From: Westiellopsis prolifica IICB1 | Lineage (GTDB): Bacteria; Cyanobacteriota; Cyanobacteriia; Cyanobacteriales; Nostocaceae | Direction of reading: 5' to 3' | Length of the DNA stretch: 39,004 nt | Assembly: GCF_004323185.1 (NCBI RefSeq) | Contig: NZ_NAPS01000001.1 | Coordinates: forward strand, 2,266,921-2,305,924 | Shown here: one piece after another, positions 12,035-35,867 of the stretch | Position numbering within the stretch: position 1 is the first letter of the stretch | How the letters are laid out: every line of letters begins with the position of its first letter | Translations under genes and position numbers: made by a program | The notes under the pieces: model-generated | Seen by the model: only the letters and a program-made list of their open reading frames with translations | Database searches by the model: none | What the model was told of the DNA's origin: nothing

Positions 12035-12569
12035 AACCCTTCTGTTCTAACTTAACTAAAACTTTAGATATACTTTCTTCTAAGCTTTCTAAATCAGTTC
12101 TACACTCGATATCTGCATTTAATGGTGGTTCGTAGGGGTCATCAATCCCAGTAAAGTTTTTAATTTGCCCAGAGCGAGCCTTTTGATAAAGCCCTTTAAT
12201 ATCTCTGCGTTCACATACATCTAGCGGTGCATTCACATAAACTTCAATAAAATTGTCAATACGCTGTCGCATTTCTTCGCGAACATCTCGATACGGTGAA
12301 ATCGCTGAAACCAGGACAATCACACCATTGCGAGACAGCAGACTGGCAACAAAACCCAGGCGGCGCACGTTTTCATCTCGATCTTTCTTGCTGAATCCCA
12401 AATCCTGAGTGAGATTTTGGCGCACTACGTCTCCATCTAACACTTCAACTTTGTAGCCTTGGGAACGCAGAATTTTCTCTATAGTGCTGCTAATTGTGGT
12501 CTTACCTGCACCACTTAAGCCAGTAAACCATACAGTAACACCAAGGTGCTGATGCTTACTCAATTCCAT
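11991..12569 (-). CDS. cysC: Adenylyl-sulfate (APS) kinase
   Basis: A 192-residue P-loop kinase that phosphorylates APS to PAPS, the universal sulfate donor. Walker A is GLSGAGKTT (17-25). Family signatures follow: VLDGDVVRQNL, then FSKKDRDENVRRLGFVA, SAISPYRDVREEMRQ, EVYVNAPLDVCERRD and KGLYQKARSGQIKNFTGID. Length is normal. I chose ATG 12569 because the longer open frame upstream (to 12704) is AT-rich and unlike the family. It is transcribed away from the PKS genes across a shared 393-bp region. PAPS is needed by the sulfotransferase at 33514-34419, although general sulfur assimilation is an alternative role. Confidence 0.92.
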   Translation of the reverse strand: MELSKHQHLGVTVWFTGLSGAGKTTISSTIEKILRSQGYKVEVLDGDVVRQNLTQDLGFSKKDRDENVRRLGFVASLLSRNGVIVLVSAISPYRDVREEMRQRIDNFIEVYVNAPLDVCERRDIKGLYQKARSGQIKNFTGIDDPYEPPLNADIECRTDLESLEESISKVLVKLEQKGYVQVYSQHQTVEPR

Positions 12570-12961
12570 AATATTGTTGGTAACTACCTGAATTAATAGT
12601 CTGACTTTGGAAATAATTCCAAAGTTTGATATTTTAGTGATTTTCAACACTTCTACTACGGATTTACCAAAACCTGAGTTTGAAATATATATATATTCTG
12701 GCAATAAAAATCACACATATTTTAAAGACAAAGTTTAAGTAACAGTATATACTGTACCTCCAAAAGGTTTTTGAAATTTTTAGTTTCAGTAAAGTTTCAG
12801 TTAAGTATTTATACGAAAAAACTTTCTTTTTTGGCACTTTATTCTTTTAACGGTACAAAAATTAATTTATATTTATAGTATTTAAAATTACAAAAATATA
12901 AATTATCCTATGTATTTATATGTAAATTGTATCAGCACTTACTTATTCTGAAATATATATC
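12570..12961. promoter_or_regulatory. Divergent promoter region, APS kinase / PKS
   Basis: About 390 bp, strongly AT-rich, between two divergent genes. At 12782-12801 is a direct repeat AGTTTCAGT separated by 11 bp start to start (AGTTTCAGTAA then AGTTTCAGTTA). An 11-bp period is typical of sites bound by OmpR/PhoB-type response regulators. No convincing -35/-10 pair and no Shine-Dalgarno before the PKS start could be assigned. The operator call is tentative. Confidence 0.35.
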
Positions 12962-15900
12962 ATGAGTCAATTTATCTGTTTATCTATAAGTCCTATTGAT
13001 CTTGCTCATCCTGGTATAGCTGTCGCTACCAGTCGTGCAGGTGGTATCGGTATTCTAGACACAGAATTTTGTCATCATCCAAAACAAGCAAGTGATAATT
13101 TAGACCAACTATTAGCTTTAATTAATCCTAATCAATCTATAGGGCTACGTTTATCAGCTGCTCAGGTTGCTTCTAGCCATGCACTGCTAACACGTCTGAG
13201 CAATCAACCTCATTGGTTAATTCTGTGTGGGTGGTATCCAAACACATTAGAAAAAGTTGCCGCATCACTGCCAGCAGGGCGATCGCGTCAACTATTATTA
13301 GAAATTACAGATGTCGAACAAGCTCAAGCTTTAAATTCCCACGCACAACAAATTAATATAGATGGCTTGGTGGCTCGTGGACATGAAAGCGGAGGTTGGG
13401 TAGGTGAAGACTCCGCTTTTATTTTATTACAGAAACTCTTAAGCATTCAGTCACGACCAGTCTATGTACAAGGTGGAATTGGCATTCACACAGCAGCAGC
13501 TTGTCGCGCCGCCGGAGCGGCTGGTGTAGTATTAGATGACCAACTATGGTTGATGCCAGAATCGCCCCTACCCCAGGAATGGCAACGTCATCTAAGTAAT
13601 CTCAATGGTCAAGAAGCGGTAGTATTGGGCGAAAGGCTCAATCCTGGTTGTCGTGTGTTGTCCCGTCCAGGCTTTCCAGTGATCACCAACCTACAGCAAC
13701 TTGCCGATCAAATAGAAGTTGAAAACGATGGTTCTGCTGGTGGTGTTCAAAATTGGCAGCAACAAGCGCAAACATTCATCGGTTGGGGTGAACCAGGAAA
13801 ACTTGCTTGGCCAATGGGACAAGTCGTAGGATTAGCAGCAACATTCCGCGATCGCTACTCCACAACTGGTAAACTGATTCAAACATTACTCCAACAAAGT
13901 CAAGAACAACTCAAAATCGCTCAACAACTGCGTCCCTTGGATGCCAATGCACCTTTAGCAGTATTATCTCATAGCACAGAATATCCAATAGTTCAAGGGC
14001 CAATGACACGGGTGAGCGATACCGCAGAATTTGCCAATGCAGTTTCCCAAGCCGGAGGACTGCCATTGTTAGCTTTGGCACTGATGCGTGGTTCCCAAGT
14101 ACGCAGCTTACTGCAAAAAACCCAGGAATTATTAGGTAATCGACCTTGGGGAATTGGGATGCTGGGTTTTGTTTCCCACGCCTTGCGGGAAGAACAAATT
14201 CAAGCGGTGAAAGAATTTCAGCCGAAATTTGCTTTAATTGCAGGTGGACGCCCTGATCAAGCAGCCCATTTTGAAGCCCAAGGGATTGCGACTTATATCC
14301 ATGTTCCCGCCCCACGCTTATTAAAAATGTTTCTGGAACAAGGAGCAAGACGGTTTGTATTTGAAGGTCGCGAATGTGGTGGTCATGTTGGTCCGTTGAG
14401 TAGTTTTGTTCTCTGGGAAAGCATGATCACTACTTTGTTAGCAGATGTAGAACCAGGTAAAGAATCAGACATACATATTCTTTTTGCCGGTGGTATTCAT
14501 GATGCCCGTTCCGCAGCTATGATTTCCGCTATGGCTGCACCCTTAGTAGAACGAGGGATGCGGATTGGTGTGCTGATGGGAACAGCATATTTGTTTACCC
14601 AAGAAGCAGTTACCTGTGGTGCGATCGTCCCGAAATTTCAAGAACAAGCCCTAGCATGTAACCATACAATTAACTTAGAAACCGGGCCTGGTCATGCTAG
14701 TCGTTGTGTTGTCACTCCCTTTGCTCAAGAATTTTACACCACACGACGAGAAATGCTGGCAGCAGGTAATCCACCAGAGGAAATCAAAGACACTTTAGAA
14801 AATTTAACATTAGGACGGTTACGCATAGCTTCCAAAGGATTGCAGCGCACAGCAGATGGTCAGGTGCAAACTGTGGGTGAAGGACAACAACTGACTGATG
14901 GTATGTACATGATCGGGCAAGTCGCGACTCTGCGCCATCAAGTATGTACAGTGCGGGAATTACATCAAAATGTATCGGAAATTGGTACTAAGCTGTTAAT
15001 GTCTGCATTCGTAGAACAAGATGTAGAAGAAGTCAGGACTCGTCCGTCAGATATTGCCATTATTGGTATAGGCACATTATTACCCCAAGCCCAGTATCCC
15101 CAAACCTTCTGGGATAACATTCTCCGCAAAGTCGATGCGATTACAGAAATTCCTGCCCAGCGTTGGGACTGGCGACTGTACTATGATCCTGACCGAAACG
15201 CCAGAGATAAAGTTTATTCTAAATGGGGTGGATTTCTAGAAGATGTACCTTTTGATCCACTGCGTTTTGGAATTCCACCCAAATCATTAAAATCCATTGA
15301 ACCAGTACAACTGCTGGCACTTGAGACAGTACGGCGAGCCTTAGAAGATGCTGGCTACGAATCTGGTAACTTTGACCGTGAGCATACTTCGGTGATTTTG
15401 GGAGCAGGTGGTGGAATTGCAGATTTAGGTCAACAATACGCTACCCGTTGTGAAATTCCCCGGATGGTTGGCAAAACTTCACCAGAAGTTTGGGAGCGTT
15501 TACCAGAATGGACCGAAGAATCTTTTCCTGGCTTATTATTGAACGTCATTGCAGGTCGAGTAGCCAATCGTTTTGATTTTGGTGGTCACAATTTCACAGT
15601 TGATGCTGCTTGCGCTTCTTCTTTAGCAGCTTTGGATTTAGCAGTGAAAGAACTCGAAACTGGACGTAGTAATGTGGCGATCGCAGGTGGAGTTGATACT
15701 GTTCAAAGTCCCTTTGCTTACTTGTGCTTTAGCAAAACTCAGGCGCTTTCACCACGGGGAAAATCGCGGACATTTGACAAAACAGCAGATGGAATTGTGA
15801 TTAGTGAAGGTTTAGCCGTCGTTGTACTCAAACGTCTCGCCGACGCCGAGCGAGATGGCGATCGCATTTACGGAGTGATCAAAGCCGTCGCTAGTTCCAG

Positions 15901-18586
15901 TGACGGTAAAGCTTTGGGGATGACAGCGCCTTTAAGCGCTGGACAAATGCGGGCTTTAAAACGTGCGTACAAAAAAGCTGGGTTTTCACCCAATACCTTG
16001 GGGTTATATGAAGCTCATGGTACAGGTACAGCAGCAGGAGATCAAGCAGAGCTAGAAACTGTGATCAGTATTTTAAAGGAAAATCGAGCTACTTCCAAAT
16101 CCTGTGCGATCGGCTCAGTCAAAACCTCCATCGGTCATACTAAGAGTACAGCGGGAATTACTGGTGTGATCAAAGCCGTTTTGGCACTGCATCACAAAGT
16201 CAAACCCCCACATATGAATGTTGATGCACCCCTCGACCCGATAATAGATAGCGAAAGCCCAGTGTATCTACCGAAAGAAGCCCAACCCTGGCTAGCCCAT
16301 CCCGATTACCCCCGTCGTGCTGGTGTCAGTGCTTTTGGTTTTGGCGGTACAAATTTCCACGCTGTTTTAGAAGAATATCAAGGTAATTGGCAAGCTGTAG
16401 CCCCAGGAAGTCATACATGGCCGTGGGAATTATTTGTCTTCCGTGGCGAAGACCGTTTAGCATTGGCTCAAGTAGCCAAATCATTGTTGACAGCTTTGAG
16501 TAATGGCGCAGAGCCACGTTTACAGGATCTTGCTTATAGTTATGCTCAACGCGCCCAAACGCAAAAGAACCAAAGTGCTTGTTTGACGATTGTAGCTGAG
16601 AGTTTGTCAAAGTTACGCACAGATTTGGAAATCGCGATCGCTTACTTAGAGAATCGTCACTCCCAAACCTTACCACCTCACATTCAGTTTGGTATAGCAG
16701 ACCCCCAAGCCAATCAAAAAATTGCCTTTTTGTTTCCAGGACAAGCATCACAATATTCTGGCATGGTGCGAGAAGTCGGGCTGTATTTCCATGAAATGCG
16801 TCACACTTTCGAGTTTGCAAATCGCCAATTGTGCCAGTATTTTCCGAAGTTACTTAGTGACTACGTATATCCACCCAGTCCTTACAGTGAAGACGCAGAA
16901 AAGCAAAACAATCAACTACTCATGGATACCAGTATTGCTCAACCAGCAATTGGTGCAGTGGAAGCAGGTTTTATCGATTTGGCAGCAAGGCTAGAACTAG
17001 AGCCAGTAATGGTTGGTGGACATAGCTTTGGCGAGTACGCCGCCCTTTACGCTGCGGGAGTTTTATCCAGAGAAGACTTTTTGAACTTAGCTGCAACTAG
17101 AGGACGGGTAATGGCACAAGCTTGTGCGACTTCTGTGGGAGCCATGGCCGCAGTTCAGACTAGCCGCGAAGATTTACTCTTACAACTGCGGGATTTTCAG
17201 GGAGTAGTGATTGCTAACCAAAATGCTCCCCGTCAATCGGTCATTTCTGGAGAAAAACAGGTTATTCAACAGGTAGTAAATAGTTTAAACGCTGCTGGCA
17301 TCACAGCTCGGATGTTGCCAGTTTCCGGTGCTTTTCACTCGCCTTTCGTCGCATCTGCCCAAGCTGCTTTAGCAGTGCCAATTGCTACCGTCACCATGCA
17401 TTTTCCTCGCATCCCGGTTTACTCAAACTCTACAGCTTGTCCCTACAGTGCAGATATTCATGAAATCCGTAACCAGTTAACCGGACATTTACTTAAACCA
17501 GTAGAGTTTTTGGGTCAAATTAATACTATGTATGCCGATGGAGCGCGGATTTTTGTAGAACTGGGATCAAAAAATATTCTGACTAACCTAGTTGGTCAAA
17601 TCCTTGCACAAAAAGAACATACTGCTGTGTCCTTAGATGGACAAGGGGGAGGATTGCGTGGTTTCTTGATGGCTTTGGGGATATTGTGCGTACGTGGTGT
17701 TCATATAAAGTTAACAGCTTTATTTGATGATCGTGATGTTAAAGACCTCAATCTATCCAAATTGGTCGAATTGACACGCAAACCACCTTTACCTGCAACA
17801 ACTTGGTTAATTAATGGCGGTAGTGCTAGACCACAAAATCAAACAGTTGGTTACACAGGTAAATTACCACCTTTGAATCATGCATCATTATCTGAATCAG
17901 GAAAATCTCCACTCCAAACCAAAAAACCAGAAATCCCTATGACTCAACCGGCTATGCAATCCAATTTAAATAGTAATTCATCCCCTTTTCCTGCTCCTGG
18001 AAACACACCTCAAAATCAGCCAGCGATAGGAGCAGGTATTTTGCAAGCCTACCAAGCTTACCAAGAAACTATGCGGAAGTTCTTGGCAGTTCAAGAACAA
18101 GTGATGAGTCAGTTACTGACTACAACTGCACCTTCTACTACTCCCATACCACAGCGCAGACAAGTAGAAAATCATTTACCAGCAGTCCCACAACCGGCTC
18201 CAACTTTCGCCGTTCCACCACTACAACCAGTAACCCCAGTACCAGCACCATTATCTTCTACTCAGCCCTTGAGCGATCGCACCAGTTTAACTCAAACTCT
18301 ATTGCAACTAGTGAGCGATCGTACAGGTTATCCCACAGATATGTTGGGACTTGACCAAGATATGGAAGCAGAACTGGGTATTGATTCGATCAAGCGAGTC
18401 GAAATCTTGGGAGCGCTGCAAAAAAGTTTACCCCAGTCCCTAGCGGCTAGTGTCCAAACACGCATGGAAAATTTGACCCGTGCGAAATCTCTTAACACTA
18501 TTGTTGAACAAATTCTGGCAATCTCAGCACAGGAGAACAGCCTGGGAAAGTCTCTAACTCAGTTGAGCGCATCCCACGTTACGTGA
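12962..18586 (+). CDS. Iterative PKS subunit, NMO-NMO-KS-AT-ACP
   Basis: A 1,874-residue multidomain synthase. Residues about 1-330 are a flavin-dependent nitronate-monooxygenase-like barrel with ARGHESGGWVG. Residues about 335-690 are a second such barrel with the full GRECGGHVG, resembling the trans-enoyl reductase PfaD of polyunsaturated fatty acid synthases. KS spans about 696-1140 (Cys884 in VDAACASSL, EAHGTGTAAGD, SIGHTKSTAG), AT about 1255-1560 (FLFPGQASQ, GGHSFGEYAAL, GAFHSPF). A proline-rich linker contains a helix MRKFLAVQEQVMSQLL, and the ACP is at about 1780-1850 with Ser1809 in LGIDSIKRVEIL, the form found in PUFA synthase ACPs. It opens the gene cluster. The TGA overlaps the next ATG (TGATG), implying coupled translation. 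It probably extends and reduces a long acyl chain; the product is unknown. Confidence 0.9.
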   Translation: MSQFICLSISPIDLAHPGIAVATSRAGGIGILDTEFCHHPKQASDNLDQLLALINPNQSIGLRLSAAQVASSHALLTRLSNQPHWLILCGWYPNTLEKVAASLPAGRSRQLLLEITDVEQAQALNSHAQQINIDGLVARGHESGGWVGEDSAFILLQKLLSIQSRPVYVQGGIGIHTAAACRAAGAAGVVLDDQLWLMPESPLPQEWQRHLSNLNGQEAVVLGERLNPGCRVLSRPGFPVITNLQQLADQIEVENDGSAGGVQNWQQQAQTFIGWGEPGKLAWPMGQVVGLAATFRDRYSTTGKLIQTLLQQSQEQLKIAQQLRPLDANAPLAVLSHSTEYPIVQGPMTRVSDTAEFANAVSQAGGLPLLALALMRGSQVRSLLQKTQELLGNRPWGIGMLGFVSHALREEQIQAVKEFQPKFALIAGGRPDQAAHFEAQGIATYIHVPAPRLLKMFLEQGARRFVFEGRECGGHVGPLSSFVLWESMITTLLADVEPGKESDIHILFAGGIHDARSAAMISAMAAPLVERGMRIGVLMGTAYLFTQEAVTCGAIVPKFQEQALACNHTINLETGPGHASRCVVTPFAQEFYTTRREMLAAGNPPEEIKDTLENLTLGRLRIASKGLQRTADGQVQTVGEGQQLTDGMYMIGQVATLRHQVCTVRELHQNVSEIGTKLLMSAFVEQDVEEVRTRPSDIAIIGIGTLLPQAQYPQTFWDNILRKVDAITEIPAQRWDWRLYYDPDRNARDKVYSKWGGFLEDVPFDPLRFGIPPKSLKSIEPVQLLALETVRRALEDAGYESGNFDREHTSVILGAGGGIADLGQQYATRCEIPRMVGKTSPEVWERLPEWTEESFPGLLLNVIAGRVANRFDFGGHNFTVDAACASSLAALDLAVKELETGRSNVAIAGGVDTVQSPFAYLCFSKTQALSPRGKSRTFDKTADGIVISEGLAVVVLKRLADAERDGDRIYGVIKAVASSSDGKALGMTAPLSAGQMRALKRAYKKAGFSPNTLGLYEAHGTGTAAGDQAELETVISILKENRATSKSCAIGSVKTSIGHTKSTAGITGVIKAVLALHHKVKPPHMNVDAPLDPIIDSESPVYLPKEAQPWLAHPDYPRRAGVSAFGFGGTNFHAVLEEYQGNWQAVAPGSHTWPWELFVFRGEDRLALAQVAKSLLTALSNGAEPRLQDLAYSYAQRAQTQKNQSACLTIVAESLSKLRTDLEIAIAYLENRHSQTLPPHIQFGIADPQANQKIAFLFPGQASQYSGMVREVGLYFHEMRHTFEFANRQLCQYFPKLLSDYVYPPSPYSEDAEKQNNQLLMDTSIAQPAIGAVEAGFIDLAARLELEPVMVGGHSFGEYAALYAAGVLSREDFLNLAATRGRVMAQACATSVGAMAAVQTSREDLLLQLRDFQGVVIANQNAPRQSVISGEKQVIQQVVNSLNAAGITARMLPVSGAFHSPFVASAQAALAVPIATVTMHFPRIPVYSNSTACPYSADIHEIRNQLTGHLLKPVEFLGQINTMYADGARIFVELGSKNILTNLVGQILAQKEHTAVSLDGQGGGLRGFLMALGILCVRGVHIKLTALFDDRDVKDLNLSKLVELTRKPPLPATTWLINGGSARPQNQTVGYTGKLPPLNHASLSESGKSPLQTKKPEIPMTQPAMQSNLNSNSSPFPAPGNTPQNQPAIGAGILQAYQAYQETMRKFLAVQEQVMSQLLTTTAPSTTPIPQRRQVENHLPAVPQPAPTFAVPPLQPVTPVPAPLSSTQPLSDRTSLTQTLLQLVSDRTGYPTDMLGLDQDMEAELGIDSIKRVEILGALQKSLPQSLAASVQTRMENLTRAKSLNTIVEQILAISAQENSLGKSLTQLSASHVT

Positions 18587-21123
18587 TGCAATCACACTTA
18601 GAAGCTTTACCCCCACAGCAGCTGACTTCGCTAACAGGTTTATTCTTAATTACTGAAGATGAACTATCTGTAGCTTCCCATGTTGCCACAGCATTGCAAC
18701 AAAAAGGAGCTACCACAGCCATCCTCAATACTTCCACCTTAGCTGAACCAGAAAAAATAGAACAGGCGATCGCTCAATTACGACAACTTCACGGTTCTGT
18801 CACCGGAATTATACATCTCGCTCCCCTCGCTACCATTGATCTACCCGAAACTCTCGCTGGCTGGCGACAACTCACCCAAATTCAGTCCAAAAGTCTATTT
18901 CAATTACTACATCTGTGTGCCGCTGACTTGCAACAAGCAGGACAAAAACAAATCGGTTGTGTAGTAGCAGCTTCTTTACTGGGAGGATATTTCGGTCGTC
19001 AAGGTGAAAGCGGTTCTGGTTTACCCACAGGCGGTAGTAATACTGGTTTCCTCAAAACCTTAGTAACTGAATGGCCTGGAGTTCGAGCCAAAGCAATTGA
19101 CTTTGACACCAGCCTATCTCCTACTAATATTGCCGAGCAGATTGTCAATGAGTTACTCAGTAGTGGTCGTTTAGAAGTCGGCTATCCTCAAGGCGAACGA
19201 ACCATTTTCCACACTGTAACAGCGACTTTGACAAAGGAAAATCAACCTGCACAGCTAACTCCAAACAATAATTGGGTAGTTTTAGTTACAGGTGGAGTCA
19301 GAGGAATTACTGCCGAAGTTGCTCATGATTTAGCAAAATATGGCTTAACACTGGTGATCACAGGAAGAGCCGCAGAGCCAGCAGCAGAAACCGTAGAAAC
19401 AGCAGGTATTGAAGATATCTCCGTACTGCGACGAGTATTACTGCAAAAAGCGCGGAATTTGGGTTTAACCCCAACACCAATCCAGATAGACCGACAACTA
19501 CAGAATTTATTACGCGATCGCACCATTACCAACAACCTCAAACAGTTTCGTCAAGCTGGCGCTCAGGTAGAGTATTTCGCAGTAGATGTCAGAAATGCGG
19601 AAGAATTTGGTACTGCAATTAACAATATTTATACTCGTTATGGTCGCTTAGATGCGGTGATTCATGGTGCTGGTATCATCGAAGACAAGCTCATTGCTGA
19701 CAAAAGCTTTGCATCTTTGGAGCGGGTTTTTGACACCAAAGTAGATAGTACCTTTTTGTTGTACCGCTATCTCAGACCAGAATCCCTGAAATTGCTTGTC
19801 TTGTTTAGCTCAGTTGCAGGGCGCTATGGTAATCGCGGTCAATCTGATTATGCTGCTGCAAATGAAGTGATGAATCGCTTTGCTTGGCAAATGGATCACT
19901 CTTGGTCAAATACACGGGTTGTAGCGATCAACTGGGGTCCTTGGGATACCACCGGTATGGCTTCGGAAGAAGTTAAAAAGCAATTTCGAGAACGTGGTAT
20001 AATTCCTATCCCCTTAGCCGCAGGTCGTCAGTTTTTTCTTGACGAATTATATTACGGACGCAAAGGTGAAGCCGAAGTAGTTGCAGGGGAAGGGCCTTGG
20101 GAAGCTTACGAAGGATCGGGGACAAGGGGACAAGGGGACAAGGGGACAAGGGAGACAAGGGGACAAGGGGGACAAGGGGGACACGGGGAATGGGGAGACA
20201 CGGGGAATGGGGAACGGATAAGGGCAAATAGTCCGCATCTTTTGTTACCATCTCCACCCCAGCTGCAACCCAACGGTACTGTCACCCTTGAACATACCTT
20301 TTCTCTAGCTACTGACCCCTATTTAGAAGATCATCGCTTAGATGGGAAACCTGTTCTCCCTGCGGCGGTAGCTTTGGAGTGGTTCGGTGAATTTGTCCAA
20401 TCAGCTTGGCCAGAATGGCAAGTTACAGAAGTTTGCCAACTCAGAGTTTTGCGGGGTTTTGTACTGGATTCCCAAGCAGGGAAAAAAGTTTTATTTCAAG
20501 CTCGTGCTTCTAGCCATGCTGATTCTGAATCTTTACAGGTAGCAGTAGAAATAGTTGATCCAGAACTTAATCTGCCATTTTATCGAGCTTCTGTGATTCT
20601 GCGTCCACAACTAGAAGAACCATTGGCAAGCGAAATTTTACTATTATCTTCCGGACAAAAGCTACAATCTACTGTAGCGTATGATACGTATCTGTTTCAT
20701 GGTCAACGTTTCCAGTTAATCACAGCCATTGATCGGGTAAATAATGTGGGTATTGATGCCCAGGTTATACCTAGCCGACCGACGGCGTGGTTGAACAGTC
20801 AACCTGTGGGTAATTGGTTATTTGATCCTGGTTTGATTGATGTGGCTCCTCAGTTAGGGATTGTGTGGGCGCGATCGCAACGGGGAACTACTGCTTTACC
20901 TTCCCGATTTGGTAGCGTCAAGCGTTTTGGTCAATCAATACCCCATAGCCCACTCCAGATTAGCTTGCGAGTCAATCACTTTGATAATCACAGCCTAAAT
21001 TATGATGCTGTTTTTATCGATGAAAACGGCTATGTACGCTTGTATCTCAAGGATATTGAGAGTACTTGCAACACTGCTCTGAATCGTTTAGCTATTGCAA
21101 AAAATAGTGGTCTGTCCGATTAA
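18586..21123 (+). CDS. PKS subunit, KR-DH
   Basis: An 845-residue protein. Residues about 12-210 form the structural, cofactor-free half of a ketoreductase (LFLITEDELSVASHVATAL). Residues about 225-500 are the catalytic KR: VTGGVRGITAEVA (NADPH loop), FSSVAG and YAAANEVMNRFAW with the catalytic Tyr, and NWGPWDTTGMA. Residues about 565-845 are a polyketide-type double-hotdog dehydratase with HxxxG-like DHRLDGKPVLPAA and the aspartate motif FDPGLIDVAPQ. It reduces and dehydrates the chain carried by the neighbouring ACP. The linker at about residues 510-550 is encoded by GGGGACAA repeats, normally intergenic. Start is ATG 18586, sharing TGATG with the previous gene; a GTG lies 3 bases earlier. 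Confidence 0.88.
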   Translation: MQSHLEALPPQQLTSLTGLFLITEDELSVASHVATALQQKGATTAILNTSTLAEPEKIEQAIAQLRQLHGSVTGIIHLAPLATIDLPETLAGWRQLTQIQSKSLFQLLHLCAADLQQAGQKQIGCVVAASLLGGYFGRQGESGSGLPTGGSNTGFLKTLVTEWPGVRAKAIDFDTSLSPTNIAEQIVNELLSSGRLEVGYPQGERTIFHTVTATLTKENQPAQLTPNNNWVVLVTGGVRGITAEVAHDLAKYGLTLVITGRAAEPAAETVETAGIEDISVLRRVLLQKARNLGLTPTPIQIDRQLQNLLRDRTITNNLKQFRQAGAQVEYFAVDVRNAEEFGTAINNIYTRYGRLDAVIHGAGIIEDKLIADKSFASLERVFDTKVDSTFLLYRYLRPESLKLLVLFSSVAGRYGNRGQSDYAAANEVMNRFAWQMDHSWSNTRVVAINWGPWDTTGMASEEVKKQFRERGIIPIPLAAGRQFFLDELYYGRKGEAEVVAGEGPWEAYEGSGTRGQGDKGTRETRGQGGQGGHGEWGDTGNGERIRANSPHLLLPSPPQLQPNGTVTLEHTFSLATDPYLEDHRLDGKPVLPAAVALEWFGEFVQSAWPEWQVTEVCQLRVLRGFVLDSQAGKKVLFQARASSHADSESLQVAVEIVDPELNLPFYRASVILRPQLEEPLASEILLLSSGQKLQSTVAYDTYLFHGQRFQLITAIDRVNNVGIDAQVIPSRPTAWLNSQPVGNWLFDPGLIDVAPQLGIVWARSQRGTTALPSRFGSVKRFGQSIPHSPLQISLRVNHFDNHSLNYDAVFIDENGYVRLYLKDIESTCNTALNRLAIAKNSGLSD
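20119..20218. repeat. GGGGACAA tandem repeats inside the KR-DH coding frame
   Basis: About 100 bp of degenerate GGGGACAAG units (GGGACAAGGGGACAAGGGG and variants, then ACGGGGAATGGGGA). The same type of sequence is found in intergenic gaps of cyanobacteria (compare 26170-26200). Here it is translated as a Gly/Arg/Gln/Thr-rich linker without breaking the frame. Confidence 0.9.
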
Positions 21124-21140
21124 TTTTGCTGGGCTGCAAG

Positions 21141-21169
21141 ATCCCCGACTTTTGAAAAAAGTCGGGGAT
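21141..21169. repeat. Perfect hairpin between PKS subunits 2 and 3
   Basis: ATCCCCGACTTTT (21141-21153) and AAAAGTCGGGGAT (21157-21169) form a 13-bp stem with a 3-base loop. No T-run follows. It lies in the 135-bp gap between two PKS genes and might act as a processing or stability hairpin or a weak attenuator. It is also a common dispersed cyanobacterial repeat type. Confidence 0.7.
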
Positions 21170-21258
21170 ATGTCTCCTCGTAGTACTCTGTCAACCTAAC
21201 TTTGAGGGGTAGAGTAGTAAACCGCCAAGACGCCAAGTGCGCCAAGAGAATAGGAAAA

Positions 21259-24200
21259 ATGGGTAATTTTTCTGATATTGCGATTGTTGGTATGTCTGCT
21301 TTATTTCCTGGAGCTAAGGATCTGCGTACATACTGGCAAAATATCTTAAATCAGGTGAATGCTGTTCGGGATGCTTCTGAGCAATGGGCAAAGCCTTATT
21401 TTGATCCTGAGTCAATGGCAAATGATCGTATTTACACTCGTAAAGGTGGTTTTTTAGGAGATTTGGCGGAATTTAATCCTCTAGAATTTGGGATTATGCC
21501 GAGTTCGGTGGATGGTGGGGAACCAGATCATTTTCTGGCTCTGAAGCTGGCGTGGGAAGCGCTGCTGGATGCTGGCTATATTGATCGCCCTTTTAACCGA
21601 GAAAAAACAGGTATTATTCTGGGTCGTGGGACTTATATTAATCGGGGCTACAATACGCTGTTGCAACATGGTCAGATTGTAGATCAGACGTTGGATTTGC
21701 TGAGGCAATTGCATCCAGATTTAGATGAAACTACTTTACATGAGATTCGCAAACAGCTAAAAGCTAGCTTACCACCTTTCACGCCGGAGATGGCACCGGG
21801 ATTAGTGCCGAATGTAATTACGGGTCGCATTGCTAATCGCCTCAACTTGATGGGGCCTAATTACATTATTGATGCAGCTTGCGCTTCTTCTTTGATTGCT
21901 GTGGAACTGGCGATGAAAGAGTTATTAAGCGATCGCTGTGACATGGTTTTAGCGGGGGGTGTTCATGCTTCCACACCGCCGCAAATTAACATGATTTTCT
22001 GTCAGCTGGGTGCTTTGTCTCGCAGCGATATTAAACCTTTTGACAGTGAGGCGAGTGGGACGCTGCTGGGGGAAGGTTTGGGAATTTTAGTTTTGAAACG
22101 GTTAGGTGATGCACAAAAAGATGGCGATCGCATTTATGCGGTGATCAAAGGTGTGGGTAGTTCCAGCGATGGTAAGGCTTTGGGACTTTTAGCACCGCGT
22201 TTGGAAGGGGAAGTACTAGCTCTCCAACGTGCTTATCAAGAAAGTGGTGTTGATCCGGCTACAGTCGGTATGATTGAAGCCCATGGTACAGGTATTGCTT
22301 TGGGAGATCAAACAGAGGTGCGTTCCTTGACCCAAATTTTTGGTCAACGTCAGGAGCAATTACCTAAGTGTGCTTTGGGTTCTGTGAAATCAATGATTGG
22401 TCACTGTATTCCCGCAGCTGGTGCCGCAGGGATAATCAAAACGGCGTTGGCATTATATCATAAAATTTTACCGCCAACCCTATGTGATGAAGTTAATCCT
22501 GCTTTAGAAATCGAAAAGACTCCTTTTTATATTAATACTCAGGCACGACCTTGGATTCATGGCGATCGCTCTACACCGAGAAGGGCGGGTGTCAATTCTT
22601 TTGGGTTTGGTGGGATTAATGCTCATGCGGTTTTAGAAGAGTATTCCAGCCAAGTTGTACAATCAACCAAGTTATTGCACCAACAATGGCCTACAGAATT
22701 GCTGTTGTTTTCCGGTGAGCATCGAGCAGCTTTGCTAGAGTCTATTGATCAAATTCAACAAGTTCTGCAAAATCATCCGCAAGTAACTCTGGCGGAAATT
22801 GCTTACACTCTATCAAGTCAATCTATCGCTTCCCATCGTTTGGCTATAGTCGCTAAAGATATTCCAGAATTACAGAAAAAACTGAGCCAAGCGGTTGAGA
22901 AATTACAAAATTCTGCAAAAAGCAGATTACAAACTCGCAATGGCATTTACTATGCAGAAGTTGGTGTAAATGTCAATCCTGGCAAGACGGCTTTTATATT
23001 TCCTGGTGAAGGGTCGCAATATCCTCAGATGCTGGCTGATTTGTGCCTTTATTTCCCGCAGGTACGCCAGTGGTTTGACTTCTTAGATGCGACTTTTAGT
23101 GAGAGACGGGCTTGTTTACCCAGCCAGTTAATTTTTCTCGCACCCACCAGCTTAACCCAAACAGAACGTCATCATGCCCAGCAACGATTATTTGGTATGG
23201 ATGTCGCTTCGGAAACAGTGTTTACTGCCAGCATGGCATTATACGAATTGCTATGTAATTTGGGTGTTCACTGTGATGTCATGGTGGGACACAGCACAGG
23301 CGAGAATGCAGCTCTGATTGCTTCTGGTACTGTTCGCTTGTCTGAGCGGATGGAATTGATGTCCAAAATGCGCCATCTCAATCAGATTTACCTCGATTTA
23401 GAGATGGGAAACAATATTCCCAAGGGCGCACTTTTGACGGTTGGGGCGATCGCATCTGAGATTTTGCAACAAGTATTAGATGAGTTTGATGGGCGCTTAC
23501 ATTTGGCGATGGATAATTGTCCCAATCAAGTGGTTTTATTTGGTAGTGTTAATGATATTGATGCAGTCAGCAGTAAGTTACAAGCATTGGGTGGTATCTG
23601 TACCCGTTTACCTTTTGACCGTGCTTATCACACACCCTTGTTTGCACCTGTAGGAACTGCTTTTCTGGAATTTTACAACGATTTGCAGATTAATTCTGGT
23701 TACACACCTGTTTATAGTTGTGCAACTGCGGCACTTTTTCCTGATGAACCGGAAGCAATTCGAGGGTTAGCAGCACAACAATGGTCTAGTCGGGTGCGTT
23801 TTCGAGAAACAGTTCTCCAACTTTATGAAAGCGGAGTGAAAAATTTTATTGAGGTTGGGCCTAGTAGTAATTTGACTGGTTTTGTCAGTGATATTCTTCA
23901 TGGTCGAGAACACCAAGCTATAGCCAGCAACAGTCAACGATTATCAGGTTTGGAACAGATTCAGCATTTGCTAGGACGGCTGTTTGTCAATGGGAATGGT
24001 GTGGATACAAGCGCGTTGTACTTGCACCGACAAGTTAACCTTATAAGCCTAGACTCGACAATGCAAGTTGGGGAAACGCAAAAATCTAGCCCAATTTTGG
24101 AACTGACAATGCCGATTATGCAGTTGCAACCCGATTTTGTCAATCATGTCCGGGAAAAATTGCAAACAAGCAAAAGTGAGTCTGTTTCTGATTTGGGTGC

Positions 24201-26169
24201 GATCGCACCAACCCAAGAAGACGCCCAGACACGCAGAACAAGAGACGCGGAGCCATCGCAAGAATTTGAATCACCTGGGTTGACAGATGAACTGTCCCCA
24301 TTTCCTTTTCCAGAAGAAGAAGAGCAACGCTTATCAATTGTTTTAGATCACTTTGACTTGATGCAAGAATTCCTTGATAGTCAAGCACGGGTGATGAGTG
24401 CGCTACACTCTCACCTGGCTGGTGTAGATAATGGGGTAAATGATGATTTTGTCAAGATGTCTTTAGCATTGCCAGATACCAATAATTGGCAAACATCCAG
24501 GTTTGATCAAGCTTTCCCCCTATTAGGTGAGATTCTAGAACACAATAGCCAGTATCTTTACTGTCAACGTCGCTTTGATATGCAGCGAGATATTTTTCTC
24601 TACGACCATACTATTGGCGGTCAAGTATCTCAGAGGCGTTTAGACTTGTTTCCCTTACCTGTGATTCCGTTCACTGTGAGTATGGAAACCCTAGCGGAAG
24701 CAGCAGTTTATTTGCTGGGTAAAGATAAAGTTGTAGTTAGACTTTACGACCTGCGTGGTTATCGCTGGCTAGCTCTTGATCAGGGTGAACTCACTCTCAA
24801 GATCAAAGCACAATTACAACCCCAACCAAATCCGCAAACTTGGGAAGTTAAGGTACAACTGTTTCAAGTAGGGGAAAGTAGTACTATCGATCACTTGGTA
24901 TTTGAGGGTCATGTACATCTAGGACATCAATTTCCAGCATTAATAGCACCATTACCTTTTCACCTTGAGCGACCTGCACCTTCGCGTTGGTCTGATACCG
25001 ATTTGTACTGCACTGGGATGTTTCATGGACCGCGTTTCCAAGGTGTGAAGCACATTCGCCAATGGGGTTTGCAGGGTATCGAAGCTGATTTGGAAGCGAT
25101 CGCCATTGAAGATTTCTTTAGTCACACCCAGCAGCCAGTTTTCCAAATTGATGCAGGTTTACTCGATGCTGCTGGACAATTAGTCGGGTACTGGGTTTCG
25201 GAGCAGTTTGGCACTGATTTTAATGTTTTTCCTTTCCAAGTACGGGCATTTCATCAGTATGTCTCACCCCTACCACCCAAAAGTGCAGTATTATGTCGCG
25301 GCTTAATGCATTTTACTAGTGAGTGGCAAACCGAAGCTAGCTTTGATTTTCTTGATACCACAGGTCGGGTAATTGCTCGCTTGGAAGGATGGCAAGATCG
25401 TTACTTCAGTGTGCCACACAGATATTACCAATGTCGCTTGCATCCCCAAATTGCTTATTTATCAGATCCTTGGCTGCAAGCAGAAACTGAAATGATCATA
25501 AGGCGGATTGAACCGTTCCCGGAACATTTTCTTGATGATTCTTGGAGTATTTGGAAACGTGTTTTAGCACACCTAATACTTAATGAATCAGAACGAGATT
25601 TCTGGTACAATCTACTACAAAAAAGTACAGAACGTACGAATTGGTTGATTGGTTGCATTGCTGCTAAAGATACCATCCGTCAGTGGGCAAAGCAAAACTT
25701 TAATTTGCAACTTGCTCCGATTGATATCGAAGTTATCAGCACTACCACAGGTAAACTTGTCGTCCGTTGTCCAGAATTGGAAGCGATGGCGGGAGTTTTA
25801 CCAAACATTGCCATTAGTCACGCTCAAGGTTTTGTAGTCGCTGCGATCGCGCACTCAGGAAAATCCATCGGTATTCATATCGAAGATTTTGACTCTGTGC
25901 ATACCGATCATTTAATTGCTACTACCTTCAGTGAATCCGAACTACAACAACTTTCCCCACCACAGCACAGTGACATCATTGGACTGTGGTCTGCAAAAAA
26001 AGCCGTAGCTCAAGCACTAGGTAAAGAACTGCAAAACGATCTGACCCAGTGGTTAATCACCCATATTTCCAGCGATGGACAGTGGATTACTGTTAACTAT
26101 AACAGTGAATCATTTATTGTCCAACTTTGTTATGGCGATCGCCAACTCTTGGCTATCTGTCAATACTAG
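21259..26169 (+). CDS. PKS subunit, KS-AT-DH-PPTase-like
   Basis: A 1,636-residue protein. KS is residues about 4-430 (Cys208 in IDAACASSL, EAHGTGIALGD, MIGHCIPAAG). AT is about 576-890 with FIFPGEGSQ, Ser679 in VGHSTGENAAL and DRAYHTPLF. A linker carries the helix MQEFLDSQARVMSALHSHL, paralleling one in subunit 1. DH is about 1100-1400 (YDHTIGGQVSQRR with His1117, QIDAGLLDAAGQL with Asp1303). The C-terminal 200 residues match Sfp-type phosphopantetheinyl transferases (NWLIGCIAAKDTIRQWAK, IAISHAQGFVVAAI), but key residues are changed: His1540 in GIHIED, Lys1581 and Gln1585 in WSAKKAVAQALG. Start 21259 is chosen for the AGGA just upstream and because the earlier in-frame sequence (21202-21258) is intergenic repeat. 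It completes the synthase. Confidence 0.88.
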   Translation: MGNFSDIAIVGMSALFPGAKDLRTYWQNILNQVNAVRDASEQWAKPYFDPESMANDRIYTRKGGFLGDLAEFNPLEFGIMPSSVDGGEPDHFLALKLAWEALLDAGYIDRPFNREKTGIILGRGTYINRGYNTLLQHGQIVDQTLDLLRQLHPDLDETTLHEIRKQLKASLPPFTPEMAPGLVPNVITGRIANRLNLMGPNYIIDAACASSLIAVELAMKELLSDRCDMVLAGGVHASTPPQINMIFCQLGALSRSDIKPFDSEASGTLLGEGLGILVLKRLGDAQKDGDRIYAVIKGVGSSSDGKALGLLAPRLEGEVLALQRAYQESGVDPATVGMIEAHGTGIALGDQTEVRSLTQIFGQRQEQLPKCALGSVKSMIGHCIPAAGAAGIIKTALALYHKILPPTLCDEVNPALEIEKTPFYINTQARPWIHGDRSTPRRAGVNSFGFGGINAHAVLEEYSSQVVQSTKLLHQQWPTELLLFSGEHRAALLESIDQIQQVLQNHPQVTLAEIAYTLSSQSIASHRLAIVAKDIPELQKKLSQAVEKLQNSAKSRLQTRNGIYYAEVGVNVNPGKTAFIFPGEGSQYPQMLADLCLYFPQVRQWFDFLDATFSERRACLPSQLIFLAPTSLTQTERHHAQQRLFGMDVASETVFTASMALYELLCNLGVHCDVMVGHSTGENAALIASGTVRLSERMELMSKMRHLNQIYLDLEMGNNIPKGALLTVGAIASEILQQVLDEFDGRLHLAMDNCPNQVVLFGSVNDIDAVSSKLQALGGICTRLPFDRAYHTPLFAPVGTAFLEFYNDLQINSGYTPVYSCATAALFPDEPEAIRGLAAQQWSSRVRFRETVLQLYESGVKNFIEVGPSSNLTGFVSDILHGREHQAIASNSQRLSGLEQIQHLLGRLFVNGNGVDTSALYLHRQVNLISLDSTMQVGETQKSSPILELTMPIMQLQPDFVNHVREKLQTSKSESVSDLGAIAPTQEDAQTRRTRDAEPSQEFESPGLTDELSPFPFPEEEEQRLSIVLDHFDLMQEFLDSQARVMSALHSHLAGVDNGVNDDFVKMSLALPDTNNWQTSRFDQAFPLLGEILEHNSQYLYCQRRFDMQRDIFLYDHTIGGQVSQRRLDLFPLPVIPFTVSMETLAEAAVYLLGKDKVVVRLYDLRGYRWLALDQGELTLKIKAQLQPQPNPQTWEVKVQLFQVGESSTIDHLVFEGHVHLGHQFPALIAPLPFHLERPAPSRWSDTDLYCTGMFHGPRFQGVKHIRQWGLQGIEADLEAIAIEDFFSHTQQPVFQIDAGLLDAAGQLVGYWVSEQFGTDFNVFPFQVRAFHQYVSPLPPKSAVLCRGLMHFTSEWQTEASFDFLDTTGRVIARLEGWQDRYFSVPHRYYQCRLHPQIAYLSDPWLQAETEMIIRRIEPFPEHFLDDSWSIWKRVLAHLILNESERDFWYNLLQKSTERTNWLIGCIAAKDTIRQWAKQNFNLQLAPIDIEVISTTTGKLVVRCPELEAMAGVLPNIAISHAQGFVVAAIAHSGKSIGIHIEDFDSVHTDHLIATTFSESELQQLSPPQHSDIIGLWSAKKAVAQALGKELQNDLTQWLITHISSDGQWITVNYNSESFIVQLCYGDRQLLAICQY

Positions 26170-26376
26170 GGAGCGGGGAGCGGGGAGCGGGGATAAGGGA
26201 GTGTGGGGAGATTTATCAGTTATCAGTTATCAGTTATCAGTTATCAAATTAAACTGTTAACTGATTTATGCCCAATGACAAATGACAAATGACCAATGAC
26301 CAATGACAAATGACCATTGTACAGACGCGATGAATCGCGTCTCTAATGACCAATTACCCATTACCAATTTCTCTTT
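26170..26376. repeat. Cluster of short repeats before the ACP gene
   Basis: Three GGGAGCG units, four TTATCAG units, a run of AATGACAAATGACC repeats, and the palindromic GACGCGATGAATCGCGTC (26323-26340), a variant of the palindromes at 5163 and 33437. There is no coding content. Whether the ACP is transcribed from here or by read-through is unclear. Confidence 0.8.
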
Positions 26377-26667
26377 ATGCAAGTCATAGACCTTCCTATT
26401 CAATCAACAATGATTGAGATTCTTAAAGACATTATCCAAGACTGGGATTTGGAATCAGATGAGATCACTCTTGAAACCGAGTTAGTAGCAGACCTCAGCT
26501 TTGCTTCTATCGATATCATTCATTTTGTTGTTGCTATAGAAGACCATTTCCAGCAGAAATTCGGGTTTGCTCAATTATTAATGCAGGATGGTCGCTATGT
26601 TGATGATTTGAGTGTAGGGCAAATCGTGAATTTTGTTTCTAAGCAATTAAACAGAGGGGTTTTATGA
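26377..26667 (+). CDS. Discrete acyl carrier protein
   Basis: A 96-residue carrier protein. The attachment site reads DLSFASIDIIHFVVAIEDHF, so Ser44 aligns with the phosphopantetheine serine, but the usual DSL is ASI. The acidic helices around it fit the ACP fold, and FQQKFGFAQLL follows as helix III would. It follows the PKS and overlaps the phosphodiesterase gene by 4 bases (ATGA), so the two are probably made together. It may hold the finished chain for transfer, or a separate acyl unit. An internal ATG at 26410 is an alternative start because the first lacks a ribosome site. It must be modified by a PPTase. Confidence 0.85.
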   Translation: MQVIDLPIQSTMIEILKDIIQDWDLESDEITLETELVADLSFASIDIIHFVVAIEDHFQQKFGFAQLLMQDGRYVDDLSVGQIVNFVSKQLNRGVL

Positions 26668-28259
26668 CAAAAACACTATTTATTGGCTTAGATGGCGCGA
26701 CTTTTACCGTGATCAATGAAATGACCCGCGACCTACCGGATGTAGGTGTGACGATGCCTTTTTTGAAACAATTTATGGAAAAGGGTGCGCGGGCGAAATT
26801 GCTGTCTACTCCCAATCCTTTGACTCCTCCAGCTTGGGTTTCGATTATGACTGGTCGTACTCCGGGAAATCATGGAGTTTATGATTTTATTCGCGCTGAA
26901 GAAACAGCTCAAGATGTTTACTTTACGCTATATGATGCCAGAGATATTCGTACAGAAACTATTTGGGCGATCGCTAGTCGGCAAAATTGCACTGTTGTAG
27001 CTTTAAACTTTCCCTTCACTGCTCCTCCTCTACCGATTAATGGAGCTTTAGTACCAGGTTTTGTTCCGTGGAAACATTTACGCCGCAACACAACTCCACC
27101 AAATTTATACGATCGCCTCAAGGAAATTCCAGATTTTGACCCCAAGGAATTAGCTTGGGACTTTGACCGTGAAAAACAAACTTTAGAGGTAATGACCGAT
27201 GAGGATTTAGAAAACTGGGTTCGCTATCACATCCCCCGCGATGAACAGTGGTTCCGAATCGCCGAGAAACTTCTCAAAGAAGATAATCCTGATTTAATGG
27301 CAGTATTGTTTGATGGTGTAGACAAACTCCAGCACCAAATTTGGATGTTTCTTGATCCTGCTTTGATCAGCGCTAATCCTTCTCCTTGGGAAAAACGGAT
27401 GCGGGAACTGTGTCTGGAGTATTTCCGCAAGTTAGATAGTTATATTCAACGGTTGGTAGAACTTGCTGGTCCTGAAGCTCAAGTATTTATGGCTTCAGAC
27501 CATGGTTTTACAGCTACAACAGAAGTGGTTCGCATCAATACCTTTCTGCACGAAAAAGGTTATCTAGCATGGAAGGAAACAGATGATTCCCAAGCGAGTA
27601 ACAGACGTGAATCAAGTTGGTTTGCCAATCTAGATTGGGATAAAACTCTTGCATACTGTCGTACTCCCTCCAGTAACGGTATCACAATTCGTGTTGCTGA
27701 AAAACCAGGAAATCCAGGTATTCAGCCTTCAGAATACGAAACCTTCCGGGAAAAATTAATTCGTGATTTGGAGAATTTCCGAGATCCAAACACAGGAGAA
27801 AGGATTATCCAAGCAATTCATAAACGAGAAGATGTTTATTCAGGTGCTGCTATGTATGAAGCACCTGACTTGACTTTGGTGCTACGCGACTATGGTTTTG
27901 TCTCCATCAAAAATTATCAACCTGCGGTTGAACCACGCGAGACACCAGCAGGAACTCACCATCCTGAAGGTATTTTCTTAGCAGGAGGATATGGAATTAA
28001 ATCTAACTATGAAGGAAAGCGGCAAAATGTTGTAGATGTTCCAGCAGCCTTATTATATAGTCTTAATCTTGCGATTCCAGCAGATTTTGAAGGTTATGTA
28101 CCTGAAGATTTCTTTACTGAATCTCATATGGATTTCAAACCAGTAAAAATTGGTATGTCTACCACAAGTGAAGAAATAAACTTATCAACAGATGATATTA
28201 GTGAAGATGAAAAACAACAAATTATTGCTCAATTACAAATGCTTGGCTACATGGAGTAA
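26664..28259 (+). CDS. Alkaline-phosphatase-superfamily phosphodiesterase
   Basis: A 531-residue protein of the type I phosphodiesterase / nucleotide pyrophosphatase group. The metal site is visible: Asp10 in FIGLDGA, the nucleophile Thr54 in NPLTPPAWVSIMTGRTPG, then FDGVDKLQHQIW, ASDHGF and AGTHHPEGIF. There is no signal peptide, so it acts in the cytosol. The family cleaves or transfers phosphoesters (some members act on sulfo- or phosphono-esters). Overlap with the ACP gene suggests action on an acyl-ACP-linked or phospholipid-linked substrate, for example head-group transfer or phosphopantetheine release; that is inference. The Cys/Ser nucleophile motif of arylsulfatases (CxPxR) is absent, so it is not a typical sulfatase. 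Confidence 0.85.
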   Translation: MTKTLFIGLDGATFTVINEMTRDLPDVGVTMPFLKQFMEKGARAKLLSTPNPLTPPAWVSIMTGRTPGNHGVYDFIRAEETAQDVYFTLYDARDIRTETIWAIASRQNCTVVALNFPFTAPPLPINGALVPGFVPWKHLRRNTTPPNLYDRLKEIPDFDPKELAWDFDREKQTLEVMTDEDLENWVRYHIPRDEQWFRIAEKLLKEDNPDLMAVLFDGVDKLQHQIWMFLDPALISANPSPWEKRMRELCLEYFRKLDSYIQRLVELAGPEAQVFMASDHGFTATTEVVRINTFLHEKGYLAWKETDDSQASNRRESSWFANLDWDKTLAYCRTPSSNGITIRVAEKPGNPGIQPSEYETFREKLIRDLENFRDPNTGERIIQAIHKREDVYSGAAMYEAPDLTLVLRDYGFVSIKNYQPAVEPRETPAGTHHPEGIFLAGGYGIKSNYEGKRQNVVDVPAALLYSLNLAIPADFEGYVPEDFFTESHMDFKPVKIGMSTTSEEINLSTDDISEDEKQQIIAQLQMLGYME

Positions 28260-31253: not shown

Positions 31254-31315
31254 TTTCTGGATATGAGTTGAAAATTTTTCTAGAAATTTAGATAAATGAA
31301 ATTTTGGAGGTAGCT

Positions 31316-33344: not shown

Positions 33345-33518
33345 AGTAATACCGTTTCTTTGTGAAGCTGCGCCAAATTTTTTAATCTCTTATTTCTTGG
33401 CTACAACCCCCAATCCAAATTGTGGGGTTTTGTAGACATAAATTTTGTCCCAGACGCGATATATCGCGTCTCTACAGGATCTGTATTTGTATCAGATTTT
33501 TTGTGAAATGGTATTACT
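33345..33518. mobile_element. MITE overlapping the end of the sulfotransferase gene
   Basis: A 174-bp element with ends AGTAATACCGTTTC (33345-33358) and GAAATGGTATTACT (33505-33518), 13 of 14 bases complementary. It carries the palindrome GACGCGATATATCGCGTC. The right end contains the TAA stop codon (33514-33516) of the sulfotransferase, so the element inserted at, or trimmed, the gene's 3' end. Confidence 0.75.
33437..33482. repeat. Palindromic repeat GACGCGATATATCGCGTC, copy 2
   Basis: A nearly exact copy of the block at 5163-5208, including the flanks TAAATTTTGT and TCTACAGG. It is nested inside the MITE at 33345-33518. Confidence 0.85.
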
Positions 33519-34419: not shown

Positions 34420-34429
34420 TAACACAAAT

Positions 34430-35764: not shown

Positions 35765-35867
35765 TTCTGGTTTTGATTCTGCCAATTTTTAGGTCTATAT
35801 AGTAGCTGCACCTATGTCAAACAATTTTGAATTTTAGATTACTGTTTGAGTAGATGCGATAGCGTCT

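Follow-up and report, generated by a model that had tools for sequence, protein, structure and literature searches.

A PUFA-synthase-like gene cluster of Westiellopsis prolifica outside the sampled Pfa and Hgl clades, with a recurrent phosphodiesterase, hydrolase, sulfotransferase and beta-propeller gene set

We analysed a stretch of 39,004 nucleotides from the cyanobacterium Westiellopsis prolifica IICB1 (contig NZ_NAPS01000001.1, positions 2,266,921 to 2,305,924; hereafter the window), which carries a cluster of polyketide synthase (PKS) genes resembling those for polyunsaturated fatty acid (PUFA) synthases. The core of the cluster, at 12962-28259, consists of three synthase genes followed by genes for a free acyl carrier protein (ACP) and for a phosphodiesterase (PDE) of the alkaline phosphatase (AP) superfamily, related to the nucleotide pyrophosphatases/phosphodiesterases (NPPs). 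Domains were called on the window proteins by Pfam and NCBIfam profile searches. Pfam found the order PKS1, PKS2, PKS3, ACP and PDE that a first-pass annotation, made from the sequence alone, had proposed for this region, and the coordinates bear out the 4-base overlap that it had noted between the last two genes: their junction reads ATGA, and the PDE start lies within the last ACP codons. The PKS1 and PKS2 genes likewise overlap by 4 bases. In the PKS3 frame the earliest start codon is a TTG at 21202, and the true start may lie slightly downstream.

In PKS1, Pfam placed the ketosynthase (KS) at residues 697-1087, the acyltransferase (AT) at 1256-1553 and a single ACP domain at 1778-1830; the KS motif DAACASS is present, and a motif scan found one carrier-like DSI site after the AT. 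Two nitronate monooxygenase (NMO) domains had been proposed in front of this KS. Two such stretches are indeed seen by Pfam on the whole protein, but only that at about residues 339-672 spans most of a reductase profile, that of FabK (TIGR03151), which was the sole match of the NMO part; the PfaD family (TIGR02814) gave none at E 0.01. PKS2 combines a ketoreductase (KR) with a dehydratase (DH), and PKS3 has one KS with an active-site Cys, followed by an AT; Pfam domains and inspection of the KS motif revealed no chain-length factor in it. No FAAL (fatty acyl-AMP ligase) domain was found by Pfam in the five core proteins. The domain content thus supports the PUFA-synthase-like iterative set that the first-pass annotation had proposed. 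The flanks (Table 1) hold, among others, genes for adenosine 5'-phosphosulfate (APS) kinase, the supplier of 3'-phosphoadenosine 5'-phosphosulfate (PAPS), for a hydrolase resembling platelet-activating factor (PAF) acetylhydrolase, and for a sulfotransferase (ST).

Table 1. Genes in and around the window cluster, with the profile or structural evidence for each (locus counts refer to the 92 PDE loci defined in the text).
Feature	Position	Strand	Evidence and remarks
TPR protein	11237..12034	-	Pfam TPR; upstream of cluster
APS kinase (PAPS supply)	11991..12704	-	PF01583 220.6 bits; NCBIfam adenylyl-sulfate kinase above cut-off; divergent from PKS1
PKS1: partial NMO, NMO (FabK-like enoyl reductase), KS, AT, ACP	12962..18586	+	Pfam, NCBIfam
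PKS2: KR-DH	18583..21123	+	PF08659 134 bits, PF14765, PF21089
PKS3: KS, AT, DH, degenerate phosphopantetheinyl transferase-like (ACPS-like) domain	21202..26169	+	Pfam, KS motif
Free ACP	26377..26667	+	PF00550 21.0 bits, cut-off 20.8
AP-superfamily (NPP-like) PDE	26664..28259	+	PF01663 152.8 bits
HlyD-type membrane-fusion protein, long N-terminal part	28599..31253	+	PF16576, PF13437
Small protein, no Pfam match	31304..31837	+	matches in 6/92 loci, window included
Alpha/beta-hydrolase (PAF-acetylhydrolase/chlorophyllase-like)	31936..33135	+	PF03403 49.4 bits; candidate release enzyme in Fischerella lineage
Stand-alone PAPS-type ST	33514..34425	-	PF13469 101.9 bits
Secreted-looking protein (by eye), possibly BNR/beta-propeller	34430..35785	-	Pfam matches all below cut-offs; 5/92 loci, window included
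Beta-propeller protein of no known family	37121..38602	-	AlphaFold2 pLDDT 91; no Pfam match above cut-off
Second AP-superfamily gene, sulfatase-like	L037:2646-3470, about 0.7 kb right of window end		relatives in 9/92 loci

To place the synthase we used a tree of 51 of 58 KS domains, five second KS or chain-length-factor domains and two partial or doubtful ones being left out; four of its five rows labelled PfaA exceed the NCBIfam cut-off (that of genome G348 does not), and rows are labelled PfaC by their position next to these. The window PKS1 KS falls within a clade of 11 (support 99/95) that is sister to a PfaA and HglE clade (joint branch 95/95); the latter comprises seven rows and holds without the PKS1 KS (100/99). 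The PKS3 KS lies within a clade of 21 (100/99), outside the PfaC clade, as the PfaC and HglD KSs form a separate clade of five rows (100/99). The first-pass annotation had made its reading depend on the KS phylogeny, and in this tree the window KSs stand outside the sampled Hgl and Pfa clades, so that the check did not refute it. The genome of W. prolifica also encodes two HglE-like KSs, which pair at 100/96 inside the PfaA and HglE clade, apart from those of the window. It has an hgl-like island elsewhere, whose PfaA-, PfaB- and PfaD-type proteins exceed the NCBIfam cut-offs and whose PfaD-family gene is separate, which agrees with the earlier statement that Hgl clusters are arranged differently, and contig C8 holds a further HglE-like locus; the window cluster thus exists in addition to these systems. 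The same genome has, separate from the window cluster, a densely packed stretch of PKS genes with 14 KS matches (C12:150000-290000).

Could the locus nevertheless encode an ordinary Pfa or Hgl synthase, making a PUFA or a heterocyst glycolipid, with unrelated neighbours? We consider this highly improbable. The PfaA model TIGR02813 is matched by PKS1 with 864 bits and by PKS2 with 283, a sum above the cut-off of 1010, which applies to a single protein, so that the gene split can explain the shortfall; moreover, a fused relative in G340 exceeds the cut-off, and its KS lies within the PKS1 clade. As the protein is split in two and the fused relative passes, we dropped this cut-off as an argument against Pfa membership, since it does not discriminate. 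What speaks against such membership is the separation of the KS clades, the missing PfaD-family match, a PfaB match of only 20.3 bits (cut-off 144.3), the lack of a chain-length factor and the presence of the hgl-like island elsewhere in the genome. The architectures differ as well: Pfa synthases have four to six tandem ACPs, a PfaC in which the KS is followed by a chain-length factor, and a PfaD-family enoyl reductase, whereas the window has one ACP in PKS1, a single KS followed by an AT in PKS3, and a FabK-like NMO part; Hgl clusters have separate PfaD- and PfaB-family genes. The fusion of the reductase in front of the first KS, which had been offered as a departure from Pfa systems, is not new: passages of PMC13291983 describe an enoyl reductase fused to a PfaA-like protein (pfaDA), a phosphopantetheinyl transferase fused to a PfaBC-like protein, and clusters in some of which the chain-length factor is missing. 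The fused clusters of those passages are mostly tied to PKS and nonribosomal peptide synthetase genes, while the window has PDE, ST, propeller and HlyD genes instead. On sequence grounds we assign the window locus to a third lineage among the PUFA-synthase-like "secondary lipid" synthases, outside the sampled Pfa and Hgl clades.

The recurrence of the gene set was examined in 92 loci, all chosen by their PDE: the best 80 of 141 encoding PDE relatives in a genome scan, 11 genomes of the order, and the window. Longest-frame gene calls are unreliable in the GC-rich loci, and the counts rest on tblastn (1e-4) over as much as about 10 kb of sequence on each side (at least 20 kb in the 11 genomes of the order). 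A PKS3 match was found in 88 of the 92 loci, in 86 of these at most 6.5 kb upstream and in the same orientation; ACP matches were found in 85, as were matches to an alpha/beta-hydrolase of either of two types. The beta-propeller gene was matched in 57 loci, the HlyD-like gene in 39 (window included) and the ST gene in 27, 26 of which had the propeller too, and these three counts are lower bounds, because the 10 kb limit or a contig end truncates many of the loci. Joint occurrence of the core genes extends over cyanobacteria, proteobacteria, Nitrospira, Verrucomicrobia and Myxococcota (for the last three, in metagenome-derived or uncultured records only), a recurrence across phyla which argues that their association is not due to chance. 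The set of PKS, ACP and PDE that the first-pass annotation had picked out is thus recurrent but larger than was seen, since it also takes in APS kinase, HlyD-like, ST, propeller and second AP-superfamily genes; the ST, the APS kinase and the hydrolase had been missed. Named carriers include Rubrivivax gelatinosus, Pseudomonas alcaligenes and Fischerella; the closest named PDE relatives are from Fischerella and Pelatocladus (91-96% identity), which marks the host as Fischerella-like. The cluster is also found in Cyanaurora, which we take to be early branching, and in Aphanocapsa lilacina HA4352-LM1. The latter is called basally branching in a passage of PMC11804610.

Within the order we profiled 291 genomes, including that of W. 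prolifica. The N-terminal part of PKS1 was found in 14 of them, a close PDE in 12 (counted at 40% identity or more; ten further genomes with matches of 26-29% were left out), the propeller in 13 and a close ST in 10 (E < 1e-50; of 82 genomes with matches, the 72 having only weaker ones were not counted). All these lie within the same 15 genomes, which hold at least one cluster gene each and are spread over eight family codes. In G205 the contig ends directly after PKS3, and in G180 the cluster is broken up. Decayed clusters with stop codons in the PDE match were observed in G206 (L054, L055) and G248 (L056), both of genus code g54; its other members G226 and G243 have an open PDE. In Hydrocarboniphaga effusa the cluster stands at two places on one contig (L101/L102) with identical open-frame lists around it, followed by a frame that by eye resembles a TonB receptor; this is possibly a duplicated cluster. 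No PDE match was found in phages. Plasmids gave matches in 58 records, all below 60% identity, of which the 15 listed are haloarchaeal, 25-28% identical and annotated as "alkaline phosphatase family protein".

The window PDE, which scores above the PF01663 cut-off, was modelled with a pLDDT of 89; among the 50 structural matches listed for the model, all at 12-17% identity, the best PDB entries are ENPP5/6/7, phosphonoacetate hydrolase and NPP. Residues D10, T54, D220, H224, D279, H280 and H432 are identical in 38 of 38 PDEs, window included, and from their mapping to Xac NPP we take these seven to be the NPP nucleophile and metal ligands; as all of them are kept, the PDE is probably active. 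The fold and the seven positions are common to ENPP5/6/7, Xac NPP and PhnA, but unlike NPP-type enzymes and phosphonoacetate hydrolase the window PDE is linked to an ACP gene. The carrier serine of that ACP (residue 44) is S in all 85 ACP matches, window included, and the ACP gene abuts the PDE gene upstream in 46 of these 85 loci, lies up to 4.5 kb downstream of it in 38 and, in one, is 1.8 kb upstream. The coupling of PDE and ACP noted in the first-pass annotation is thereby upheld, since their closeness is retained across phyla although the gene order flips. A complete NPP-type active site and this closeness suggest that the PDE probably acts at the ACP step. Its N-terminus, judged by eye, has no signal or membrane segment; the enzyme would probably be cytosolic and act on a phosphodiester connected with that step, and our guess for the target is the phosphopantetheine link or a phospho-headgroup. 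A 669-residue frame in L126 looked like a PDE-ACP gene fusion and was rejected, its N-terminal part being a shadow frame across the real PDE.

One genome, G023, gives a hint as to what the PDE may do at the ACP. It has PKS1, PKS3, propeller and STs, and no PDE at 1e-20. Between its PKS3 and hydrolase genes sits a natural ACP-ST fusion (contig C208, L183:14826-16121; PP-binding at residues 23-65, Sulfotransfer_3 at 142-359), separated from PKS3 by one unrelated beta-helix gene. This arrangement suggests that PDE and ST are able to serve the same station.

For want of a visible thioesterase or thioester-reductase domain, the PDE had been taken as the best candidate for release of the chain. This reading is not supported: the window has an alpha/beta-hydrolase gene (Table 1), and with a hydrolase match near the PDE in 85 of the 92 loci, release by the PDE alone is less needed. 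The window-type hydrolase itself is matched in eight of the 92 loci, the window being one of them; in L088 its gene comes right behind that of the PDE, and in G279 it follows the ACP gene. The Fischerella lineage has no ortholog of the usual hydrolase (the best match in the genome of W. prolifica is 36% identical over part of the protein), and the PAF-acetylhydrolase-like enzyme stands in its cluster. From sequence, we regard the alpha/beta-hydrolase as the ordinary candidate for chain release. It is unlikely that the PDE is itself a chain-release or carrier-recycling enzyme, cutting the phosphodiester that joins phosphopantetheine to the ACP, or else a carrier-bound intermediate. Its closeness to the ACP despite the flipped order, the complete active site, the N-terminus and G023, where the fusion stands beside the hydrolase as if it had replaced the PDE, would fit such a role; besides the frequent hydrolase, the best fold matches argue otherwise, as they act on nucleotides, phosphocholine lipids and phosphonoacetate and not on ACP, and G023, a single exceptional genome, is weak evidence. 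To our knowledge, there is no known ACP phosphodiesterase of NPP-type fold.

Among solved structures the window ST is closest to the CurM ST (4gbm, E 1.2e-27) and the olefin-synthase ST (4gox, E 4.4e-23), and it matches others weakly. A genome-wide search at 1e-20 in 39 of 40 genomes (that of L062 left out) found the ST in 32, the G180 match lying inside a 2913-residue frame. In the 291 genomes, matches beyond the cluster-type enzymes show 26-35% identity, most of them within open frames of at least 1000 residues; the exceptions are cluster paralogs (37-41%) and, in G206, a short fragment. We built a tree of 47 STs, leaving out duplicates and sequences below 200 residues; 20 of these are PKS-embedded, out of about 70 genomes with such matches. 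In it the stand-alone STs make up a separate clade (100/100) that excludes the PKS-embedded type. Three PKS-embedded STs were sampled for their context, which is ACP-ST-condensation in L168 and KR-ACP-ST-hydrolase in L162 and L163. The G023 ACP-ST fusion alone groups with the PKS-embedded ones, where it belongs to the L168 subclade and not to that of L162/L163. In L092 the ST and propeller genes occur as three pairs in one cluster, with a small gene within the third pair, and in G011 (L040) a second ST gene has a second propeller-like gene right behind it. This joint multiplication, as read from the sequences, points to a working partnership of the two proteins. The best PDB matches of the propeller model are mostly propeller proteins, and the fold search named no function.

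The kinship with CurM and Ols raises the alternative of a discrete olefin synthase, in which ST and hydrolase would do as separate proteins what CurM and Ols do in cis, and make a long terminal alkene from a beta-hydroxyacyl chain carried by the ACP. The ST-hydrolase olefin mechanism is described in passages of PMC3903477, and like the window these systems have a related ST and combine ACP, ST and alpha/beta-hydrolase; the G023 fusion followed by a hydrolase gene has the same order as the PKSs of L162 and L163. They differ in having ACP, ST and thioesterase in one protein, whereas the window has separate genes, an ST of a clade of its own, a PUFA-like synthase and no FAAL in the core five. We regard this alternative as very unlikely for the window. 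The stand-alone ST falls outside the PKS-embedded clade, the G023 ST belongs to the subclade whose one sampled member is the ACP-ST-condensation protein, the three ST-propeller pairs of L092 fit several sulfations better, the usual hydrolase ortholog is missing in the Fischerella lineage, and the PDE and HlyD would be left without a role.

We propose instead that the cluster encodes a PUFA-like secondary lipid synthase of the third lineage, with its own tailoring and export set and a sulfated product, a reading that seems to us evenly poised between right and wrong; the product is most likely a sulfated long-chain lipid. In this pathway PKS1-PKS3, whose domains are observed, would use two KSs, two ATs, a KR, two DHs and a FabK-like enoyl reductase, but no chain-length factor, to build a long, partly reduced chain iteratively and, as the linkage suggests, would hand it to the free ACP. 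The APS kinase would make PAPS and the ST, likewise assigned by its enzyme family, would sulfate a hydroxyl of the chain. The alpha/beta-hydrolase would then release the chain as a sulfated acid or alcohol; release as a terminal alkene, the olefin synthase outcome, is less likely. The HlyD protein would serve export.

Several observations weigh against this proposal. Picking the best 80 of 141 loci by PDE similarity favours linkage, and the Fisher tests against PKS1 in the 291 genomes (p < 1e-15 each) treat related genomes as independent. No ST was found at 1e-20 in G004, G205 (broken contig), G206 (decayed) and the genomes of L088, L101, L115 and L129. Of these, L088 (Fischerella sp. PCC 9431) has PKS3-ACP-PDE-hydrolase with no PKS2 in the stretch and no ST genome-wide, and is possibly a cut-down cluster. 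The separate clade of the stand-alone STs may mean a substrate differing from that of the PKS-embedded type. APS kinase was matched in only two of the 92 loci (window and G004), most named stretches ending before the PKS1 start. A bolder form of the proposal, which we think quite unlikely, is a widespread secondary-lipid pathway in which an NPP-type PDE acting on the loaded carrier is a new offloading or carrier-resetting step, replaceable by a PKS-type ST, and which yields a long-chain lipid bearing several sulfate groups.

Upstream of the cluster, APS kinase divergent from PKS1 is found in L222, L223 and G205 as in the window, and near the ACP in G004; it was not seen beside PKS1 in seven genomes examined (G081, G011, G226, G152, G236, G279 and G023). 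The TPR gene adjoins APS kinase and PKS1 in L222 and L223, and TPR relatives are close to cluster genes in G004, G226, G152, G206, G236, G023 and G180. At 8674-11237 genes for a response regulator-SpoIIE phosphatase, a STAS protein and a HATPase are grouped, likely a partner-switching regulatory set. The relative of the second AP-superfamily gene in L072 also resembles the STM4013 family. At the C-terminus of PKS3, the phosphopantetheinyl transferase (PPTase)-like domain of the first-pass annotation is present but has lost motif residues. Sfp-type PPTases carry the motifs G-I/V-D and W-x-x-K-E-A; the window domain reads GIHIE and WSAKKA, so that two motif residues are lost and the domain is, by its sequence, probably inactive. 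Both D and E are kept in 61 of 78 aligned relatives, not in 11, and gaps occur in six. In the Fischerella lineage the window, L058 and L088 lack both residues, L059 keeps the first and L060 the second, and this domain (24700-26166 in the window) is one decaying in place.

The kind of synthase is already known. Shulse and Allen (2011; PMC3098273) distinguished secondary lipid synthases of types A-T, Pfa-like and multidomain and many without a known product; their main text nowhere uses the words sulfotransferase and phosphodiesterase. The window lineage is perhaps family CF-3 of Calteau (2014; PMC4247773): passages on CF-3 describe cyanobacterial PUFA-like PKSs, from Gloeobacter and heterocystous strains, with KSs distinct from those of CF-1 (Hgl), as in the window cluster, and name no PDE, ST or product. 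Compact hgl-like islands without a known product are mentioned in PMC11804610. Searches of titles and abstract starts found no description of the conserved PDE-hydrolase-propeller-ST set, which does not show that none is in print. In the literature covered, no product or function was found for the window lineage and its conserved companions. The finding would bring to the secondary lipids a lineage linked to sulfation and would give an ACP-linked PDE and an unnamed beta-propeller family a testable job. With the core genes present in named strains, among them Rubrivivax gelatinosus, Pseudomonas alcaligenes and Fischerella, a direct search for the product is possible.

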